64,000 nt of DNA. It comes from a virus. A model generated the notes under the pieces. That model saw only the letters and a list, made by a program, of their open reading frames with translations, made no database searches and was not told the origin of the DNA. The stretch is taken from positions 1-64,000 of the IMG/VR virus record IMGVR_UViG_3300047564_002155; one strand, written 5' to 3'. This document shows positions 51,592-64,000 of this stretch, one piece after another (the first letter of the stretch is position 1; each line of letters begins with the position of its first letter). The position numbers and the translations under genes were made by a program.

Positions 51592-51596
51592 AATTA

Positions 51597-51607
51597 GATA
51601 CTTATTA
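51597..51607 (+). promoter_or_regulatory. candidate late promoter motif
   Basis: GATACTTATTA directly before the ATG at 51610. Confidence 0.4.
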
Positions 51608-51609
51608 TT

Positions 51610-54600
51610 ATGGGAAATTTAATTAAAGAGTGGGTTAGGGGAATTCTTGTTGAAGAAGTAAAACAAGAAGTAGTAGTTTATGCTGGAAGGTTTCAACCAT
51701 TTCACAAAGGACACTACGCTACCTATGAACATTTGGTAAAAAAGTTTGGTAAGCAAAATGTCTTTGTTGGGACCTCAAATCAACAAGGTGGTCCAAGACA
51801 TCCATTTAATTTTAAAGAAAAACGAGAAATTATGATGAAGATGTTTAACATCCCATCATCACAAATTGTCCAAGTAAAAAACCCATACCAACCAAGTGAG
51901 GTTTTAAATAAATTTGATTCTAAAACCACCGCATTTATCACGGTAGTTGGTGAAAAGGATGAGGCTCGTTTGGGTGGTAAATACTTTAAGAAATACGATG
52001 GTAAGCCCGAAAGTGGATATCTTGATAACGGATATGTGTATGTATCCCCGGCACAACCAAACGCAATAAGCGGAACTGATGTTCGTAATTGGTTATCAGC
52101 ATCAGATGATTCTCAAAGAAAAGCTGGATTCAAGAAAGCATACCCAAAGTTTGACCCAAAGATTTACAATTTAATTTCAACAAGGTTAATGAAGATTGAA
52201 TCCGTAATGGAATCGTTCTTTAAATCATTTGATGTTGAATCTCTTTTAGAGGGCTCTCTTTATGGGGCAGATGCTGGTGAACCCGACACTATGTTTGTAT
52301 TGCCAGGAAAAACTCGCAAACTTGGAATGAAAAATCCAGGTCAAAAAGATGATGTGTGGTTTGTAAATGGTGGTTATGTTCAAATGCACTTTCCGGTAGC
52401 TGATGTGATTGTTTCACCTGATGCAAAGGGGTCATCTGATTACTACCAATATTCATCCAAACGAAATATCCGTAATAATACCGATTTGGAAATCCCACCC
52501 GTAAGTGATGACTTTACAACGGCTAAACAGGGTAGAAAACAAGTTGATGTTCAAGACCTCAAAACCGAAGGTTCTACTATGGGACCAATTTCACTTGATA
52601 TGGTTGATAATGGTCCTGCGTTTTCTTGGGCAAGTAAAGAAAAATACCAATCTGCAAATAACGAAATTGCAAAACGATTGGGATTTGAAGTAGTTGATTG
52701 GATGTTGGGAACTGACTTGGAAACTCAATTTGTTCAAGACCGACCAACACAAGTTTCTTACTATCCAAAAAGTAATAGACCTGCAAATAAAGACTACTCT
52801 GATTGGAAATCTGATATTGAAAAAACAGCCACCGCTGTTGGTGTTGAGTTTATAAATTTTCTTGATAAAAAACAAATTGGATTAAACGAAGACCTTTTCG
52901 GAACATCGTTAAAAATGAAACCATATGAAACCTTGATGGTTAAATCCGTTATTGAATTTATGATGGATAAGTATAATTTTAATGCAAAGATTATAGTAAA
53001 GAAAAAAGAAAAAGTTGGATTGATAGGTGATATATCCTTAAATTCAAATTCAGTAGATGGAAATAAATTTTATTTACACTTTAATCCCAATCAGTCATAT
53101 CAGAGAATAATTCAAACAATGATACACGAGTTGACTCATATCAAACAAGTTTCCAGAAAAGAATTATTACCAAATAAAGACTATACCGCAATACTTTGGA
53201 AGGGTAAAGAATACATAACTGCAAAAGACTATAATAAGTTAATGAAGTCAAGTCCTTCGGAGTATATCAAATTACCTTGGGAAGTTGAAGCTATTTCAAA
53301 TATGAAAAGTTTGTATCCTCAATTTATAAAATCAAAATATTGGTTGGGATTAAAGGGTAAGGACTCTACATTAGATTATATTATCAATACAAACGAAAAT
53401 GTATTAAAAGAATCTTTATTGGTTGAAGGTGGTGCGTATGGTCATATGGCTCACCCATTTGATACTGAAATGAATTTAACTTTTGGTGACTTAAAACAAA
53501 TCATCAACGGAGCCCTAACGGGCGAATTAGAACTTGCAAGAGAAAAGACCGATGGTCAAGCCCTTGCTATTTCGTGGAGAGATGATAAGGGTTTAATTGC
53601 AGCAAGAAACAAAGGACACCTTGCTAATCGTGGTGAAAAGGCATTGGACATTAGCGGTATTGCTTCAAAGTTTGGTGGTAGAGGTGGTTTGACCGACGCA
53701 TACAACTTTGCAATGAAAGACCTTACATCAGCTATCAAAGGTTTATCAAAAGCACAACGAGACAAAATCTTCAAACAAGGTGCAAAGTTTATGAACCTTG
53801 AAGTAATCTGGCCAACATCGGTCAATGTAATCCCTTATGGTCAAGCCCTTTTGGTATTCCACAATACGACTGAATACAACGAAGCTGGTATAGCTATTGG
53901 TGCTGACCAAAGTGATGCAAAGGTTCTTGCTGGGATGATTAAACAAGTTAATGCTGATGTTCAATCAAAATACACAATCCAAGGACCGCCGGTAACCCAA
54001 TTACCAAAGTCGCAAAAACTTACATCTTTAAAATCAAAATTTGATGGTCAGTTGAATAAACTTCAAAAAGAATTTAATTTGAAAGATACTGATGGTGTTG
54101 CAGAATATCACCAAAAGTGGTGGGAAAATTTTGTAGATACAAAATCACCATCAACACTTGATAACAAAACTAAAATGGGTCTTGTTAAAAGATGGGCGTT
54201 CTACGATAAAGGGTTCCGTTTGGACAGTAAAACCATCACCGACCCTAAAGTGTTGACTTGGGCTCAAGGTATAGATAAAAACGACCACGCCAAAATTCAA
54301 AAAGATAATATTAGACCATTTGAAGATATTTTCTTGGGTGTTGGTGCCGAAGTTCTTTCGTTTATGAGTTCAGTTTTAACTGCAAATCCTGATGCTGCTG
54401 TTAGAAGTATGAAAGACCGACTTGACCAAACAGTTAAGGACGTTCAAAAAGCAGGTGACCCAAAGAAAATTGCAAAACTAAAATTAGAATTAGAACGACT
54501 TGCCGCTATTGGTGGTAAAGACAAAATTGTTCCTAATGAGGGTATCGTATTTGTGTATAAAGGTAATACTTATAAACTTACAGGCACATTCGCACCACTC

Positions 54601-54633
54601 AATCAAATTTTAGGATTGTTCTACGGAGAATGA
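51610..54633 (+). CDS. 1007-aa multidomain protein: nucleotidyltransferase, HExxH and KxDG ligase-like motifs
   Basis: Three enzyme-like parts. Residues 20-195: cytidylyl/adenylyltransferase fold with GRFQPFHKGH (H32, H35) and ISGTDVR (153-159), as in NMN adenylyltransferases. Residues 430-560: HELTH (H506-E507-x-x-H510), a zinc-peptidase motif. Residues 610-800: EKTDGQALAIS with K646-x-D-G649, motif I of the nucleotide-dependent ligase/capping superfamily, then IAARNKGHL and VIPYGQALLVFH, compatible with later motifs. Smaller proteins with the first and last parts occur in T4-like marine phages. Located among virion genes, so possibly packaged. Substrates unknown. Confidence 0.7.
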   Translation: MGNLIKEWVRGILVEEVKQEVVVYAGRFQPFHKGHYATYEHLVKKFGKQNVFVGTSNQQGGPRHPFNFKEKREIMMKMFNIPSSQIVQVKNPYQPSEVLNKFDSKTTAFITVVGEKDEARLGGKYFKKYDGKPESGYLDNGYVYVSPAQPNAISGTDVRNWLSASDDSQRKAGFKKAYPKFDPKIYNLISTRLMKIESVMESFFKSFDVESLLEGSLYGADAGEPDTMFVLPGKTRKLGMKNPGQKDDVWFVNGGYVQMHFPVADVIVSPDAKGSSDYYQYSSKRNIRNNTDLEIPPVSDDFTTAKQGRKQVDVQDLKTEGSTMGPISLDMVDNGPAFSWASKEKYQSANNEIAKRLGFEVVDWMLGTDLETQFVQDRPTQVSYYPKSNRPANKDYSDWKSDIEKTATAVGVEFINFLDKKQIGLNEDLFGTSLKMKPYETLMVKSVIEFMMDKYNFNAKIIVKKKEKVGLIGDISLNSNSVDGNKFYLHFNPNQSYQRIIQTMIHELTHIKQVSRKELLPNKDYTAILWKGKEYITAKDYNKLMKSSPSEYIKLPWEVEAISNMKSLYPQFIKSKYWLGLKGKDSTLDYIINTNENVLKESLLVEGGAYGHMAHPFDTEMNLTFGDLKQIINGALTGELELAREKTDGQALAISWRDDKGLIAARNKGHLANRGEKALDISGIASKFGGRGGLTDAYNFAMKDLTSAIKGLSKAQRDKIFKQGAKFMNLEVIWPTSVNVIPYGQALLVFHNTTEYNEAGIAIGADQSDAKVLAGMIKQVNADVQSKYTIQGPPVTQLPKSQKLTSLKSKFDGQLNKLQKEFNLKDTDGVAEYHQKWWENFVDTKSPSTLDNKTKMGLVKRWAFYDKGFRLDSKTITDPKVLTWAQGIDKNDHAKIQKDNIRPFEDIFLGVGAEVLSFMSSVLTANPDAAVRSMKDRLDQTVKDVQKAGDPKKIAKLKLELERLAAIGGKDKIVPNEGIVFVYKGNTYKLTGTFAPLNQILGLFYGE

Positions 54634-55255: not shown

Positions 55256-55268
55256 TGTGAGGTATTAT

Positions 55269-57812
55269 ATGAAAAGTAAAGAGTATTACATTCGTTTAGG
55301 TGAAGCGGTTCAAAAGCTAGAAGAAAAGAATTGCCCAACCGACCCATCAAAGTGGTCATATTATAAATCACAAGCAAAAGAAAAGTTTGATGTATATCCA
55401 TCAGCATATGCTAATGGGTGGGCTTCAAAACAATATGGTGATGCTGGTGGTGGTTGGAAGAAATGTGAAAACGAAGCTACTGATTCTCAAGAAAAAGAAT
55501 TTCATACTCAACTTGATAAGTTAGTTCACAAAACTTTTGGTAAAAGTCCGGAAGAAGAAAAAATGGATGAGAAGTTTGATAGAACTCACCTTGGTATTTT
55601 AAAATACGCTTATAAGGACATTGATAAAATCAATCCATCCGACCCAATGTATGTTAGAGTGGCTCAGATGTTGGATAAATTATCAAAACAGGAATTACAA
55701 CAATTGATTGATGCTGACATTAAGTTCATATCACTTCTTGCAAAGAATCGTTTATCAAAAAAAGAATCAGTAAACGAAGAAAAAGTAGATATGGAAGAGC
55801 TAGAAATGATGCTAAAGAAATTAAAAAAAGAGAATCCAGGTAAAAAAGTAACATACAGTTTTATTAAAGGTAAACAATACCCTAAAGGTTATGTTATTAA
55901 AATAAATGGAAAAATTTTAGAAGGTGAATCAGTAAACGAATCTCATTTTCAAGTTGGTGATAATGTCACTTGTCTTAAAAGTGGTATGACTGGTCAAGTT
56001 GTTGGGATGGATAAACCACACGGTGCGGATGATGAGGAATATTATACAGTTAAAAGACAAGATGGTGAAGTAATGAAATACTCACCAAACGAATTAAGAC
56101 TTACTGAAAACACTTTGAAAGAAGGTTTGTTCCAAGACATTATGAGAGCTGTTAAAAAAGGTGATGGTCCTTTCACTTTGGTTGTTATTAAGAACAACAA
56201 AGTAATTAAACAAGTAGAAGTTAAAACTCCACAAGCAATCCCTGCAAACTACTCTTCATTATTAAAAGATTTTCCTAATACGAGAATCAGAATAGAGGAT
56301 GCAACAGGTAAAATTGTAATGGGTGAATCGGTAAACGAAGCTAAGGCAATCGGAAAAAAGATATTCTCTGATGCTAAAGGAAAACTTTTCTTTGGATACC
56401 AAAATGATGATGATACTGTTCAACTTGTAGATTACAAAACTTGGAAAAAACTTCCAATGACGGACTTATCTAATGAGTTTATGGCTAACAGAATAATCAA
56501 CTCAATTGTTAGAAATGAAAGACAATTCAACAAAAAAGTTGAATACAATATGTGGTCTAAAAAGACTAACCCATCTTTTGAAGAGAGAATGGATTACTTC
56601 ATTAAAAACAATTGGATATCTAATATCACTAAAACTGGTATCAAAGAATCGGTAAACGAATCATCAATGAGTAATATTGATATTATCGCACAAGAAGCAA
56701 AAGATTTTAAAGATTTTGTGAAAGAGTTCTACAACGAATACAAAGATTTTCCAAAAGATAGAGATACTATTAAATGGTTAAAAGGTGTTTATGATAATAG
56801 AAGCACAAACGAATCGGTTGAATCATTAGATGAAAAATTACCAAATGAGTTTGCTACCATTCCTAATGATTCTCGTGTAGATGGTATGATGAAACATCTT
56901 CAGCACCATTTGGGTGTTATTAGTAAGAATGTAAAGACTGGTAAAGGTGTTTACAAAAAGGATTTGATGAAGATGGCAAACATCATTAAAGCCCTTCAAA
57001 TGTATGAATCAAAATCAGTAAACGAATCATCGGTTGAAATTGGTGATATCGTATTGTTCCCACCAGCGAATAGTGCTGCTACTGTTGTTGATAGGTTTGG
57101 TAGAAGTGTGACCTTAAAGTTGGCTAATGGTAAAAAAGTTAAAACCGTGGTTGATAAAGTTAAGTTATTAGCACAAGATAATGTAAACGAGGGTAATGCT
57201 TTCACAGGTGCTTTGTTCAAAGCTCGTAAAGAAGGTTTGACTGAATTTGAATTCAACGGAAAAAAATATCCGGTTCACAAACTTGAAGAAGAAAAAGAAG
57301 AAACTCTTGCTGAATCAAAATTGACCAAAGATTCTTTGAAGCAAATTATCAAAGAAGAATACCATAATGTAAAAACCTTTATGGAAGAAAAATACGGATT
57401 TACTCCTGAATTAGGTAAGGTATATTCCAATCTTGCAGCTAAACCTTTTTTAAAAGAAGAAGAGGAAGAGGTAGTTGATGAGTATGATGTAGAAAATTAC
57501 CAAGACCTAAAAGAGTTTGTTCAGTTTATGGCTGAATACAAAAGTGATATCAACGAGGCAGAATATCAAGGTAGAAAAGTAAAACTTGGTAAGATTATGC
57601 AAGGTGATGTTAAGAAATTCAAAGTATATGTTAAGAACGACAAAGGTAATGTTGTTAAAGTAAACTTTGGACAAGGTGGTGATGCTAAGGGTGGAACTAT
57701 GAGAATTCGTAAAGACAATCCTAAAGCAAGAGCATCGTTCAGAGCAAGACACAATTGTGATAACCCTGGTCCAAGATGGAAAGCAAGATATTGGTCTTGT
57801 CGTAAATGGTAA
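55269..57812 (+). CDS. ESVNE-repeat protein, possible processed virion precursor, 847 aa
   Basis: ATG 55269 is preferred to the GTG 12 bases upstream. The protein alternates small folded modules with recurring linkers: ESVNE at 166, 220, 353 and 460, with variants TNESVES at 513-519, KSVNE at 582, NVNE at 638 and DINE at 760. The modules differ: a 165-residue helical N-terminus, a KOW/SH3-like barrel after 220 (QVGDNVTCLKSGM), another after 582 (EIGDIVLFPPANS), and a basic C-terminal domain (RASFRARHNCDNPGPRWKAR). xxE linkers resemble cleavage sites of T4-type prohead protease, whose gene starts at 63873. Processing into internal head proteins is inference. Confidence 0.7.
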   Translation: MKSKEYYIRLGEAVQKLEEKNCPTDPSKWSYYKSQAKEKFDVYPSAYANGWASKQYGDAGGGWKKCENEATDSQEKEFHTQLDKLVHKTFGKSPEEEKMDEKFDRTHLGILKYAYKDIDKINPSDPMYVRVAQMLDKLSKQELQQLIDADIKFISLLAKNRLSKKESVNEEKVDMEELEMMLKKLKKENPGKKVTYSFIKGKQYPKGYVIKINGKILEGESVNESHFQVGDNVTCLKSGMTGQVVGMDKPHGADDEEYYTVKRQDGEVMKYSPNELRLTENTLKEGLFQDIMRAVKKGDGPFTLVVIKNNKVIKQVEVKTPQAIPANYSSLLKDFPNTRIRIEDATGKIVMGESVNEAKAIGKKIFSDAKGKLFFGYQNDDDTVQLVDYKTWKKLPMTDLSNEFMANRIINSIVRNERQFNKKVEYNMWSKKTNPSFEERMDYFIKNNWISNITKTGIKESVNESSMSNIDIIAQEAKDFKDFVKEFYNEYKDFPKDRDTIKWLKGVYDNRSTNESVESLDEKLPNEFATIPNDSRVDGMMKHLQHHLGVISKNVKTGKGVYKKDLMKMANIIKALQMYESKSVNESSVEIGDIVLFPPANSAATVVDRFGRSVTLKLANGKKVKTVVDKVKLLAQDNVNEGNAFTGALFKARKEGLTEFEFNGKKYPVHKLEEEKEETLAESKLTKDSLKQIIKEEYHNVKTFMEEKYGFTPELGKVYSNLAAKPFLKEEEEEVVDEYDVENYQDLKEFVQFMAEYKSDINEAEYQGRKVKLGKIMQGDVKKFKVYVKNDKGNVVKVNFGQGGDAKGGTMRIRKDNPKARASFRARHNCDNPGPRWKARYWSCRKW

Positions 57813-58830: not shown

Positions 58831-60405
58831 ATGGCAAAAAGTTTAAAGGAACTTATTAGGGAAGAGTACATTAAATGTGCTAAAGACCCAGTGTATTTCT
58901 TTAAGAAATATTGTTATATCCAACACCCTCACCGAGGTAAAATTCTTTTCAATCTTTATGATTTCCAAGAAGATTTGATGAGGGAGTTTGATGACCACAG
59001 GTTTAATGTAATCCTCAAATCACGTCAGTTAGGTATTTCTACTCTATCCGCCGGATACTCTTTATGGATGATGTTATTCCACGAAGATAAAAACATTTTG
59101 GTAATTGCAACCAAACAAGAAGTAGCAAAAAACCTTGTGACTAAAGTAAGGTTTATGCACGAAAACCTACCAAGTTGGTTAAGAGGCCAAACCGAAGAAG
59201 ACAATAAACTTTCTTTACGATTGAGAAATGGTTCTCAAATTAAAGCAACATCAGCAGCAGGTGACGCGGGTCGTTCTGAAGCTCTTTCAATGTTAATTAT
59301 GGATGAGGCTGCGTTTATTTCCAACATTGAAGATATTTGGACTTCTGCTCAATCAACTCTTTCAACCGGTGGTAAAGCTATTGTCTTATCAACTCCAAAT
59401 GGTGTTGGTAACTGGTTTCATAAAATTTGGTTAAAAGGTGAGGCCGGTGATAGTTGGAATCCAATCAAACTTCACTGGACCGTTCACCCTGAACGAAACC
59501 AAAGTTGGAGAGATGACCAAACAAAATTACTTGGTGAAAAGGGCGCAGCACAAGAATGTGATTGTGACTTTATCAGTTCGGGTTACACGGTAGTAGACTC
59601 ATCAATTCTAACTTGGTATACTGAAACTTATATTAAAGACCCAATTGAAAAACGAGGATTTGATGGAAATTATTGGTTGTGGGAATATCCAAATTATTCT
59701 CGTGACTATGTAGTGGTAGCCGATGTGGCTCGTGGCGATTCATCCGACTATTCAGCATTTCACGTTATTGATATTGAAACCGTAGAACAAGTTGCTGAAT
59801 ACAAAGGTAAGATTGAAACCAAACAATATGGAGCATTCCTTACATCGGTTGCTGCGGAGTGGAACAATGCTATGTTGGTGGTTGAAAACGCAAACATTGG
59901 TTGGGCTGTAATCCAAGAAGTTATTGATAGAAACTATACAAACTTATATTACTCATATCGTGAGTTGGGTTATGTAGATGATGATGTCCACCTACGAAAA
60001 GGTTGGGACCTAAAGAAAAAAGAAGATATGGTTCCGGGCTTTACAATGTCTTCACGAACAAGACCTTTGGTGATTTCTAAACTTGATACCTATATGAGAG
60101 AAAAAACACCAATCGTTCACTCAAAGCGTTTAATTGATGAGCTGTTTGTATTCATTTGGAATGGTTCCAAGGCGGAGGCTCAACAAGGGTATAACGATGA
60201 CTTGGTTATGTCGTTCTCCACAGGACTTTGGGTAAGAGACACCGCATTAAAATTAAGACAACAGGGTATAGATTTAAGCCGTACCGCATTAACTCACATT
60301 TCAAAGACTCAAGGTGGTGTTTACAACGCCAGAATGGGACAACATAATCCTTGGGTATTAAAAGATGGTAGAGGTAATGATGTAGATATGACTTGGATAC
60401 TTTAA
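58831..60405 (+). CDS. terminase large subunit gp17-like
   Basis: 524 aa. ATPase motifs: KSRQLGIST (63-71, Walker A variant), LIMDEAAF with D158-E159 (Walker B), and STPNG after it (motif III). The C-terminal RNase H-like nuclease has VVVADVARGDSSDYSAF and NPFVLENAN-like segments (MLVVENAN). It translocates DNA into the head, as T4 gp17 (610 aa). No small subunit (gp16) is adjacent. Ten bases after the spanin-like gene. Confidence 0.96.
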   Translation: MAKSLKELIREEYIKCAKDPVYFFKKYCYIQHPHRGKILFNLYDFQEDLMREFDDHRFNVILKSRQLGISTLSAGYSLWMMLFHEDKNILVIATKQEVAKNLVTKVRFMHENLPSWLRGQTEEDNKLSLRLRNGSQIKATSAAGDAGRSEALSMLIMDEAAFISNIEDIWTSAQSTLSTGGKAIVLSTPNGVGNWFHKIWLKGEAGDSWNPIKLHWTVHPERNQSWRDDQTKLLGEKGAAQECDCDFISSGYTVVDSSILTWYTETYIKDPIEKRGFDGNYWLWEYPNYSRDYVVVADVARGDSSDYSAFHVIDIETVEQVAEYKGKIETKQYGAFLTSVAAEWNNAMLVVENANIGWAVIQEVIDRNYTNLYYSYRELGYVDDDVHLRKGWDLKKKEDMVPGFTMSSRTRPLVISKLDTYMREKTPIVHSKRLIDELFVFIWNGSKAEAQQGYNDDLVMSFSTGLWVRDTALKLRQQGIDLSRTALTHISKTQGGVYNARMGQHNPWVLKDGRGNDVDMTWIL

Positions 60406-60477: not shown

Positions 60478-62337
60478 ATGGCAGACAATTCATTATTTGG
60501 AAGATTACAAAAACTATTCGCTACCCAAGTCATCGTAAGAAGAGTTGGGAAGAATCGTTTACAAGCCGTAGACTCACAAAGACTACAATCTCAAGGTAAT
60601 ATCCGTGGAACATCATACTACGATAGATTTGGTCGTTTACATACTTCTCGTAGGAATTGGGAAACCTACAACCAACAATTTAATTATCACTCAAACAAGT
60701 TAGAATTGTATACTGACTATGAGGCGATGGACAAAGATTCAATCATTACTTCTATTTTGGATATCTACTCCGATGAGTGTACCTTAAAGAACGATATGGG
60801 TGATGTGATTCGTATTAAATCTTCTGATGAGAATCTAAAAAAAATCCTTCACAACTTATTTTATGATATCTTAAATATTGAATTCAACCTTTGGGCTTGG
60901 GTTCGTGGTATGAACAAATATGGTGACTACTTTTTGTATTTAGATATTGAAGAGGGAGTTGGTATTGTAAATGTCCAACCAATTTCAGCATACGAATTTG
61001 AACGTGAAGAGGGATTTAATCCTGATAACCCTTATGAGGTTAGATTTAAATTATCCAATATGAGTTCTTCTACCAATTTCTCATATGGTAAAGATAAAAA
61101 TACATACTTCCCATTTTATCAGATTGCACACTTTAGATTAATGACCGACTCAAACTTCCTACCATATGGTCGTTCTTTGTTAGAGGGTGCTAGAAAAACT
61201 TGGAAACAATTAACTCTTATGGAAGACGCAATGATGATTCATAGAATTATGAGGGCGCCTGAAAAGAGAATCTTTAAAATTGATGTTGGTAATATCCCAC
61301 CACAAGAGGTTGACCAACATATGAGAAACATTATTGATGGAATGAAAAAAGTTCCATATATTGACCAGAACACGGGTGATTACAACCTCAAGTTCAATAT
61401 GATGAATATGTTGGAAGACTATTTCTTGCCGGTTCGTGGTGGTCAAAGTGGAACTGAAATTGATTCTTTGAGTGGTATGGAATTCGGTGGTATTGATGAT
61501 ATTGAATACCTAAAGAATAGAATGATGGCTGCTTTAAAAGTTCCTAAAGCATTCATTGGATATGAAGAGGGTGTGGAAGGTAAAGCTACCCTTGCTCAAC
61601 AAGACATCAGATTTGCAAGAACTGTGGAACGAGTTCAAAAGATTGTTCTATCAGAACTTACTAAAATTGCAATTGTTCACCTTTACTCACAAGGATACGA
61701 AAACGAAGACCTCGTTAATTTTGAGTTAGAGCTTACAAACCCATCTATTATTTACGAACAAGAGAAAATTGCTTTACTTTCTGAAAAGACAACTCTTGTA
61801 AGCAATATGAAGGATTTGAAGATGATTTCACAAGAGTGGATTTACAAAAACATCTTTAATATGTCTGATGATGAGTGGGAAAAAGAACAACAAAAAGTAA
61901 TTGATGACTTGAAGTTATCGTTCAGACACGAACAAATTACTACCGAAGGTAACGACCCAGCTAAAACGGGTGAATCGTTTGGAACACCTCACGACCTTGC
62001 TGTGATTGCACAACAACCTGCTGAAGAAGAGGGTGGTTCTCCTGAAGGTGGATTTCCTGGCGCTGGAAGACCAACTGAAAGTGGAACATACGGAACCGAC
62101 CAAGCAAATATGGGTAGAGACCCACTTGGTAAACAAACCGACATTAGTAGAGACAGTACATATCATAATTTTAGAAAAGGGCCAATGGCGGTTGAATCTC
62201 AAACGGCATTAAAATCTTCTCTGAAAAAAATGAAGGTTAAAACCAAGTCTATGATTATGGAATCCTTAAAACCAGAGTCTAAAACTGAAGAGCTGGGGTT
62301 GTTGGATGAGTCACAATTGTTAGATGATACGATTTAA
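60478..62337 (+). CDS. portal protein gp20-like
   Basis: 619 aa. N-terminal clip/stem features (DYEAMDKDSIITSILDIYSD), NMYYDILNIEFNLWAWVRG region, then FRLMTDSNFLPYGRSLLEG and ALKVPKAFIGYEEG, characteristic of gp20-type portals of T4-like phages. C-terminal 100 residues are Gly/Pro-rich, then a Lys-rich helix. It forms the dodecameric ring through which terminase packages DNA, and fits directly after the terminase gene. Confidence 0.95.
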   Translation: MADNSLFGRLQKLFATQVIVRRVGKNRLQAVDSQRLQSQGNIRGTSYYDRFGRLHTSRRNWETYNQQFNYHSNKLELYTDYEAMDKDSIITSILDIYSDECTLKNDMGDVIRIKSSDENLKKILHNLFYDILNIEFNLWAWVRGMNKYGDYFLYLDIEEGVGIVNVQPISAYEFEREEGFNPDNPYEVRFKLSNMSSSTNFSYGKDKNTYFPFYQIAHFRLMTDSNFLPYGRSLLEGARKTWKQLTLMEDAMMIHRIMRAPEKRIFKIDVGNIPPQEVDQHMRNIIDGMKKVPYIDQNTGDYNLKFNMMNMLEDYFLPVRGGQSGTEIDSLSGMEFGGIDDIEYLKNRMMAALKVPKAFIGYEEGVEGKATLAQQDIRFARTVERVQKIVLSELTKIAIVHLYSQGYENEDLVNFELELTNPSIIYEQEKIALLSEKTTLVSNMKDLKMISQEWIYKNIFNMSDDEWEKEQQKVIDDLKLSFRHEQITTEGNDPAKTGESFGTPHDLAVIAQQPAEEEGGSPEGGFPGAGRPTESGTYGTDQANMGRDPLGKQTDISRDSTYHNFRKGPMAVESQTALKSSLKKMKVKTKSMIMESLKPESKTEELGLLDESQLLDDTI

Positions 62338-63732: not shown

Positions 63733-63873
63733 ATGTCTTGCGGATGTGAAAAGAACCAAGTTAATGAAGCTTTAGAGGTGGATGACATCTCTCAAATCAG
63801 ATTGTTGATTCGTAAAGAATTAGCTAAAGTATTTCTTGACCTTTACCGCAAAAAACAAATCTGGGAAAAATAA
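63733..63873 (+). CDS. small helical protein, 46 aa
   Basis: ATG one base after the previous stop; its TAA overlaps the prohead protease ATG (TAATG). Starts MSCGCEKNQVNEALEVDD and ends in a basic helix (IRKELAKVFLDLYRKKQ). It contains a VNEA segment like the repeated ESVNE linkers. Position and size resemble T4 gp67/gp68-type small core proteins; unproven. Confidence 0.65.
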   Translation: MSCGCEKNQVNEALEVDDISQIRLLIRKELAKVFLDLYRKKQIWEK

Positions 63874-64000
63874 TGAAACAATTATTAGTTGATACTACTG
63901 TATTCCAAATTACACCTCAAATCTTGAAGGAGTCGCAAGACCGCCACGGAAGATTTTTGGTTACAGGTGTATTGCAGAGAGCAAACGCTAAAAACCAAAA
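63873..64000 (+). CDS. prohead protease gp21-like, N-terminal part
   Basis: Cut by the window end after 42 codons. MKQLLVDTTVFQITPQILKE and VTGVLQRANAKNQ fit the conserved start of T4-type prohead core protease of marine phages, where VLQRA.AKNQNGR leads into the fold. The gene sits where gp21 is expected, after portal. The protease cuts head proteins after a hydrophobic-x-Glu motif in T4. Confidence 0.8.
   Translation, partial: MKQLLVDTTVFQITPQILKESQDRHGRFLVTGVLQRANAKNQ

Follow-up and report, generated by a model that had tools for sequence, protein, structure and literature searches.

What a single phage reading frame might do with the signatures of an adenylyltransferase, a metallopeptidase and a ligase is the question raised by a gene in the head-gene neighborhood of IMG/VR record IMGVR_UViG_3300047564_002155. 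The window analyzed, a stretch of 64,000 nucleotides, covers positions 1-64,000 of this record, the whole genome being 168 kb. The open reading frame, here called P0001, extends from ATG to stop at window positions 51610-54633 (+ strand) and encodes 1007 residues, and the residues named in an earlier note on this DNA were located at the places given there. All data are genomic, and the readings rest on sequence comparison and predicted structures. By these means P0001 is seen to consist of an NMNAT/NadM-type N terminus, an exchangeable middle with an HExxH cassette and an RNA-ligase-superfamily C terminus, with conserved motifs and with joints in the form of prohead-protease sites; its three motifs exceed chance. 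In our view P0001 is probably a cargo polyprotein that a T4-like phage packages into its head and that a gp21-type protease cuts into separate enzymes, which enter the host.

The N-terminal region, which the earlier note had taken from two short motifs to be a nicotinamide mononucleotide (NMN) adenylyltransferase-like domain, was matched by Pfam CTP_transf_like (3.3e-7, above cut-off). The NCBIfam NadM-type match (3.5e-9) was well under that model's cut-off and the closest NCBIfam matches were far below equivalog cut-offs; the nearest relatives in NCBIfam and the PDB, at modest scores, were NadM/NMNAT proteins. Residues G26, F28, P30, H35, S154 and R159 were invariant among 34 relatives. Foldseek analysis of the full-length model (predicted local distance difference test score, pLDDT, of 69.6) returned NadM, NadD and NMNAT proteins as top hits for the N terminus, and the GRFxPxHxGH and (S/T)xxR signature of the NMNAT/NadM type is present within a predicted nucleotidyltransferase Rossmann fold, in agreement with the original assignment. 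P0001 resembles bifunctional NadM/NMNAT proteins (2qjo, 2qjt, 1ej2) in fold and in the GRFxPxHxGH and SGTxxR motifs but, unlike bifunctional NadM, is without a Nudix domain.

At the C terminus, KxDG (K646-T-D-G649, motif I), R666-N, E731, E977-G978 and K989 were invariant in 32 sequences with identities down to 25%. AlphaFold2 prediction of residues 607-1007 from 29 sequences gave a mean pLDDT of 86.7 and a predicted template modeling (TM) score of 0.83. The 27 best PDB fold matches of this model were all ligases, mostly RNA ligases, of which only the first had an E value below 0.001 (8.8e-4); they comprised fungal tRNA ligase, T4 Rnl1 and Rnl2, archaeal and Naegleria RNA ligases, and the DNA ligase of African swine fever virus. 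TM-scores were 0.2-0.3, low values explained by the large helical insertion that separates motif III from motif IV. The presence of motif I (KxDG) with motifs III, IV (EG) and V (K), together with the predicted core fold, is consistent with membership of the covalent nucleotidyltransferase superfamily. The reading of K646 as the nucleotide-binding lysine of ligases agrees with the full motif set and the predicted ligase core, but an ATP-grasp-like core, also put forward in the earlier note, was not supported, the fold matches being covalent-nucleotidyltransferase ligases. In both terminal domains, then, the cores are predicted and the motif residues are conserved. Known RNA ligases (T4 Rnl1 and Rnl2, archaeal Rnl and fungal tRNA ligase) are the best fold matches and have motifs I, III, IV and V in common with P0001, which differs in its ∼10% identity to them, in the helical insertion and in a motif V of KLTG instead of KxK. 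A PDB sequence search with the ligase profile produced chance matches only. Among viral structure models, the ligase part matched proteins described as “cytidyltransferase-like” from uncultured phages and from Synechococcus phage S-PM2.

In one relative (L060:7986-11490), the NMNAT-ligase polyprotein gene is split exactly at K^TDG by an intein-like element (CVYGDAIIQ ... VNGILVHN). The interruption encloses a separate endonuclease-like reading frame and resembles a fractured (split) intein gene. Insertion at this place fits the habit of inteins of occupying active sites, a supporting but anecdotal observation.

Between these ends the protein varies. IMG/VR yielded 234 candidate stretches for the whole of P0001 and, with the ligase part as query, at least 545, and across 80 relatives, with total lengths of 639-2003 residues, the NMNAT and ligase ends were constant and the middle was variable. 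The middle ranged from almost nothing (Microcystis phage Mel-JY01, protein WWT39297.1 of 639 residues) to ∼1400 residues (L041) and contained, in various relatives, a CCA-adding tRNA nucleotidyltransferase (PHROG 2244, 1e-62 to 1e-65), an HD domain and several HExxH modules as well as weak RegB-like matches and a large number of unnamed modules. In L168 the domain order is changed, with NMNAT placed mid-chain. Minimal NMNAT-ligase proteins were found in the distant relatives L170 and L173, from which we infer that the pairing is old; the ligase occurs alone in L084 and L172. In the first part of the P0001 middle, modules beginning GADAGEPDTMF... and VDNGPAFSW... both recur among relatives in differing combinations, and no strict [LIV]xE[AGS] site lies between them in P0001. 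Inside the cassette region of the L111 polyprotein (segments from residues 452 and 516), a homing-endonuclease-like, HNH-like sequence (...EYHLDHKYSILE) was observed.

The second part of the middle is the HExxH cassette, described in the earlier note as a zinc-protease site. The motif is present, and the PWEVEA that follows it is kept as PWE[VMI]EA in polyprotein and stand-alone homologues, consistent with a putative peptidase. Pfam metallopeptidase matches to the cassette were below cut-off, and the PHROGs that match it (16532 and 10499) are both without assigned function. No zincin was present among the listed fold matches of the full-length model, in which the cassette was only partly modeled. 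In that model pLDDT fell below 50 at residues 6-14, 212-349, 367-388, 422-435, 465-485, 514-536, 595-603 and 605-613; the stretch at 212-349 is a module lacking a confident model, and a zincin fold is unconfirmed because those at 465-485 and 514-536 fall inside the cassette. The cassette is missing from most relatives, since the middle is swapped.

T4 gp21 cuts after Glu in an [LI]xE-type motif and removes ∼10-residue capsid-targeting leaders from internal proteins, and T4 Alt is cut at ITE-6 and LTE-619 (PMC9026906, PMC5694885). Sites of this form recur at the joints of P0001 and its relatives (a slash marks the putative cut). At the joint preceding the ligase, 104 unique sequences had Glu at P1 in every case, Leu or Ile at P3 (Val once), ∼10 different residues at P2 and Gly at P1′ in every case. 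A site was present within ∼16 residues of the place of LLE214/G in most of 30 relatives, and of 57 unique relatives whose sequence extends to the NMNAT motif, most begin with a leader ending in a hydrophobic-hydrophobic-x-E site. The predicted cut in the Mel-JY01 protein reads IIAE/GGLGGH. Stretches of low pLDDT hold or adjoin all of the proposed cut sites (at ∼15, 214, 427, 601 and 606). Cutting the middles of relatives at the motif gave 433 segments in 48 clusters.

Several of the statistics were computed post hoc on data in which the pattern was first noticed, and the domain-depletion and genome-wide tests depend least on choices made by eye. In 30 non-redundant relatives, strict sites were absent from the NMNAT core (0 versus 5.2 expected) and depleted in the ligase (9 versus 19.4) and exceeded expectation in the variable middle (100 versus 35.3). 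In the 168-kb genome, [LIV]xE[AGS] was at background outside the head region (115 versus 110.3 expected) and enriched inside it (48 versus 19.4). The motif also lay ≤10 residues from 81 of 288 homology boundaries between middles, compared with 36 ± 5 for shifted positions (2000 shifts, maximum 54), the boundaries having been defined without the motif and related proteins treated as independent. Replacement of xE by xD or x[KR] gave null values in this test. The control pattern [KRQT]xE[AGS] was also enriched (44 versus 19), which we tentatively attribute to doubled sites such as LKE/SLLVE. In the capsid protein of the phage, LVSE60/A aligns with the T4 cleavage place FLTE65/A.

The same joints are found at the ends of leaders in separate genes. 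In other phages the HExxH cassette occurs as a gene of its own (∼178 residues, 78-87% identical), which opens MIKLKSILSE/DLFGTS or MIRLKTILNE/DLFGTS, and the polyprotein cassette opens GLNE/DLFGTS, with the same end residue. A second HExxH module behaves alike, with ILSE/GVRNP in the stand-alone form and SINE/GDRDP in polyproteins. Runs of seven neighboring small genes in L187 (7955-12466) and L188 (9212-12460) mostly share a 10-residue leader, MI[KR]LxxILxE/, on unlike proteins. The fixed leader pattern was present in 11 of 14 island genes and 1 of 40 flanking genes (p 4e-8, an optimistic value, the islands having been selected by their leaders and some starts picked to fit). The T4 ipII/ipIII leader is MKTYQEFIAE/A, and the ipIII and island leaders are alike in having ∼10 residues, a hydrophobic P3 at position 8 and Glu as P1 at position 10. 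P0001 has the short N-terminal leader ending in [LI]xE that characterizes T4-type internal head proteins, at 15 residues rather than 10. The L187 and L188 runs, which are candidate islands of packaged proteins, include a HAD-like phosphatase (YDFDDTLVFT). Ahead of the P0001 start (window positions 51595-51610) there is no Shine-Dalgarno-like sequence, as for several leader genes in L184-L186; head genes of the phage itself, such as gp22 and gp23, differ in having one.

The linkers might instead be flexible, recombination-prone joints in an intact multidomain effector that, like a polyvalent protein, would enter both capsid and host in one piece, or one from which only the leader is removed. 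Cleavage of P0001 is a prediction, and there are precedents: polyvalent proteins, which are large and multidomain, have their genes close to head genes and are predicted to be injected, and the N4 virion RNA polymerase enters the capsid without being processed (PMC5512222). Invariant P1 Glu and P3 Leu/Ile with a free P2 would be expected of a protease site, however, and not of a mere linker. Variants of the motif without Glu showed no boundary enrichment, and the leaders of stand-alone genes stop at the very residue where the internal joints lie. We regard the intact effector as unlikely.

Evidence bearing on packaging comes from the gene neighborhood and from cyanophages. Downstream of the portal gene lies one for a gp21 homologue (Pfam Peptidase_S77, 4.6e-32, above cut-off). 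The terminase and portal neighbors of P0001 have the same order in phage Mel-JY01, whose terminase and prohead protease carry annotations. A putative cytidylyltransferase, T4-GC190, a core protein of cyanophages, was detected by mass spectrometry in purified virions of S-SM1 (Sullivan et al. 2010, PMC3037559). The S-SM1 gene of this cluster, SSM1_190, begins MKKFSAFLNE/AERSF and lies beside a gene of cluster GC71 with a KWDG motif. The GC71 protein of S-PM2 (S-PM2d138, L201:2486-4261) has a KWDG ligase-like part fused ahead of an NMNAT-like part, opposite to the arrangement in P0001, and it matches the ligase model by Foldseek (E 9e-5); a search of S-SM1 and S-PM2 with the A2 ligase profile found nothing by sequence. 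The cyanophage proteins resemble P0001 in having an NMNAT-like protein with a leader and an adjacent or fused ligase-like KWDG part but differ in being two genes or a reversed fusion, with no large cassette region. The S-SM1 detection supports packaging of the NMNAT-like family, not directly of P0001.

Most phage NMNAT/NadM proteins are described as salvage enzymes for nicotinamide adenine dinucleotide (NAD) made during infection (PMC9503650), and P0001 might likewise be an ordinary, unpackaged late enzyme of intracellular NAD/RNA metabolism with an incidental motif pattern. The leader, the site statistics, the head-gene context, the modules common to leader-tagged genes and the presence of a cyanophage NMNAT-like protein in virions all speak against this explanation, which we hold to be distinctly improbable. 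Least probable of all, and hardly to be expected, is a prohead scaffold or core component that is cut up in maturation and whose domains serve assembly and not the next host: the head-gene neighborhood and core-type sites would suit it, as would T4 gp22, gp67 and gp68, which are core proteins cut by gp21 (PMC9026906, PMC5694885), but two sets of catalytic motifs have stayed intact in widely diverged relatives and both enzyme domains contain fewer cut sites than expected, so that, in contrast to core proteins that are degraded, the products seem to survive.

The processed cargo precursor that we favor can be described by the following minimal scheme. The N-terminal leader would target the precursor to the prohead core, as T4 internal-protein capsid-targeting sequences do. 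The gp21-type protease would then cut after [LI]xE at the five proposed sites, which are backed by statistics, conservation and homology, with release of an NMNAT-like adenylyltransferase, middle modules including the putative HExxH peptidase, and an RNA-ligase-type nucleotidyltransferase. The freed enzymes would be ejected into the host along with the DNA. Comparisons support an exchange of the middle, module by module, between phages, in which the cut sites would serve as joints and leader-tagged stand-alone genes as source or sink of modules. In the weakest step of the scheme, the constant NMNAT-ligase pair and the CCA-adding, HD and RegB-like cassettes would most likely form an early kit for RNA/NAD repair or counter-defense. 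NAD is consumed by host NADase defenses and by KptA-type RNA repair (PMC9503650), and RNA repair in phages is known to combine RNA ligases with CCA-adding enzymes (PMC7824862). A repair kit is the simplest reading of the RNA theme shared by the RNA-ligase-type enzyme, the CCA-adding enzyme and the HD and RegB-like domains, and it is the least certain part; the peptidases and many unnamed modules imply a cargo broader than RNA/NAD repair.

The suggestion of a packaged effector, made in the earlier note, stands in part: packaging is supported independently by the leader, the protease-type sites, the head-gene context, the stand-alone leader-bearing homologue and the cyanophage virion data, but in place of a single effector there is probably a multi-product precursor with an exchangeable middle. 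Among known systems, T4 internal proteins are packaged enzymes that are cut at LxE/IxE and ejected into the host (PMC9026906, PMC5694885). T4 IPI-III and Alt each give one mature product and have terminal propeptides, whereas P0001 would carry several enzymes per chain, with internal sites and an exchangeable middle. The polyvalent proteins of Iyer et al. 2017 (PMC5512222) are also large multidomain chains with metallopeptidase and nucleotidyltransferase domains, found in portal-terminase phages near head genes and with stand-alone cassettes nearby. P0001, as a multidomain effector of a portal-terminase phage that is predicted to be packaged, falls within that description. It differs in that term searches of that paper showed no T4-type leaders or prohead-protease sites between all domains, and no NMNAT and ligase ends among the domains given there.

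Several observations weigh against a packaged and processed precursor. P0001 taken alone has 4 strict sites compared with 2.3 expected, which is not significant, even though all four fall between domains; its leader site has Glu at P1′, which is less usual; and L061, L062, L074 and L078 have only MNLNE or MNLSE in place of a full-length leader. The optimistic island p value and the treatment of related proteins as independent belong here too. The virion detection gives presence only and is limited to a distant NMNAT-like relative that is a separate gene, not a polyprotein. The Pfam RNA ligase models (PF09414, PF09511) had no match in the genome, which would make the C-terminal domain a separate branch of the covalent nucleotidyltransferase superfamily. 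No NAPRTase (NadV) was found in this genome record, so that NAD salvage by the phage alone is not supported and NMN would need to come from the host.

It is an evenly balanced question whether many aquatic T4-like phages possess such a cargo polyprotein system, with the prohead-protease motif as both processing site and cassette-exchange joint and a constant NMNAT and RNA-ligase pair delivered at entry. If they do, the leader and the [LI]xE joints would provide one sequence rule by which injected proteins could be listed, from genomes alone, across a very large set of uncultured phages, and many unnamed early-infection effectors would be exposed. A role would also be gained for the virion “cytidyltransferase” of cyanophages, long listed as a structural protein without one. 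NAD and RNA repair enzymes would arrive with the DNA before phage gene expression, when anticodon nucleases and NADases may act, and natural cassette exchange suggests that T4-type heads accept very diverse enzymes. Term searches of open-licence papers found no earlier account of a precursor of several enzymes in which every joint has a protease site, the middle is swappable and the modules also occur as leader-tagged genes, which is weak evidence of novelty.

Features of P0001 and neighboring genes in the window (coordinates in nucleotides; a slash marks a putative cut)
Feature	Residues	Window positions	Strand	Basis or remark
Leader (MGNLIKEWVRGILVE/E), putative capsid-targeting sequence ending in [LIV]xE site	1-15	51610..51654	+	
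NMNAT/NadM-like adenylyltransferase domain	19-206	51664..52227	+	Pfam, NCBIfam, invariant motifs, Foldseek
GRFQPFHKGH	26-35	51685-51714	+	NMNAT motif
ISGTDVR	153-159	52066-52086	+	NMNAT motif
Putative prohead-protease site LLE214/G after NMNAT domain		52243..52251	+	Position kept in relatives, low pLDDT from 212
Variable middle, first part (GADAGEPDTMF... and VDNGPAFSW... modules)	215-427	52252..52890	+	Recurrence in relatives
Swappable HExxH cassette, preceded by LNE427/D	428-601	52891..53412	+	Stand-alone homologues
HExxH, H506-H510	506-510	53125-53139	+	PWEVEA follows at residues 556-561
Double putative protease site LKE601/SLLVE606/GG before ligase domain		53404..53427	+	Conservation, low pLDDT
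RNA-ligase-superfamily nucleotidyltransferase domain	607-1007	53428..54630	+	Invariant motifs, AlphaFold2, fold search
Ligase motif KTDG	646-649	53545-53556	+	
Ligase motif R666	666		+	
Ligase motif E731	731		+	
Ligase motif EG	977-978	54538-54543	+	
Ligase motif K989	989	54574-54576	+	
Second modular, putatively processed protein (851 residues), repeated ESVNE/S linkers		55257..57812	+	Site count, shared modules
gp17-like terminase		58831-60405	+	Open reading frame translation
gp20-like portal		60478-62337	+	Open reading frame translation
Start of gp21-like prohead protease gene, continues to genome position 64514		63873..64000	+	Pfam Peptidase_S77

Downstream of P0001, the second modular protein contains 11 [LIV]xE[AGS] sites compared with 2.35 expected. 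It is made of small modules, some of them shared with a leader-bearing stand-alone gene in L187, and its C-terminal cysteine-containing RARHNCDNPGPRWKARYWSCRKW motif is likewise common to a leader-bearing gene in L187. Beyond the window, the same genome (G000) encodes a further modular protein of 683 residues (163707-165758), with modules that recur at ≤79% identity in NMNAT-ligase polyproteins from other phages. Next to it is the gene of a HEVEH protein with a leader (MKLISLIVE/G, 165779-166531). The T4-like late promoter TATAAATA was found 8 times with 8 expected and is uninformative for this phage, and no Rfam element was found near the P0001 gene. Among head-type proteins elsewhere, the product of BPT24_169 of Tenacibaculum phage pT24 (L190:1093-3903), annotated as “DNA ligase 1”, is acidic and has many LxE sites and, on reading, no KxDG; it is probably a misnamed head protein.

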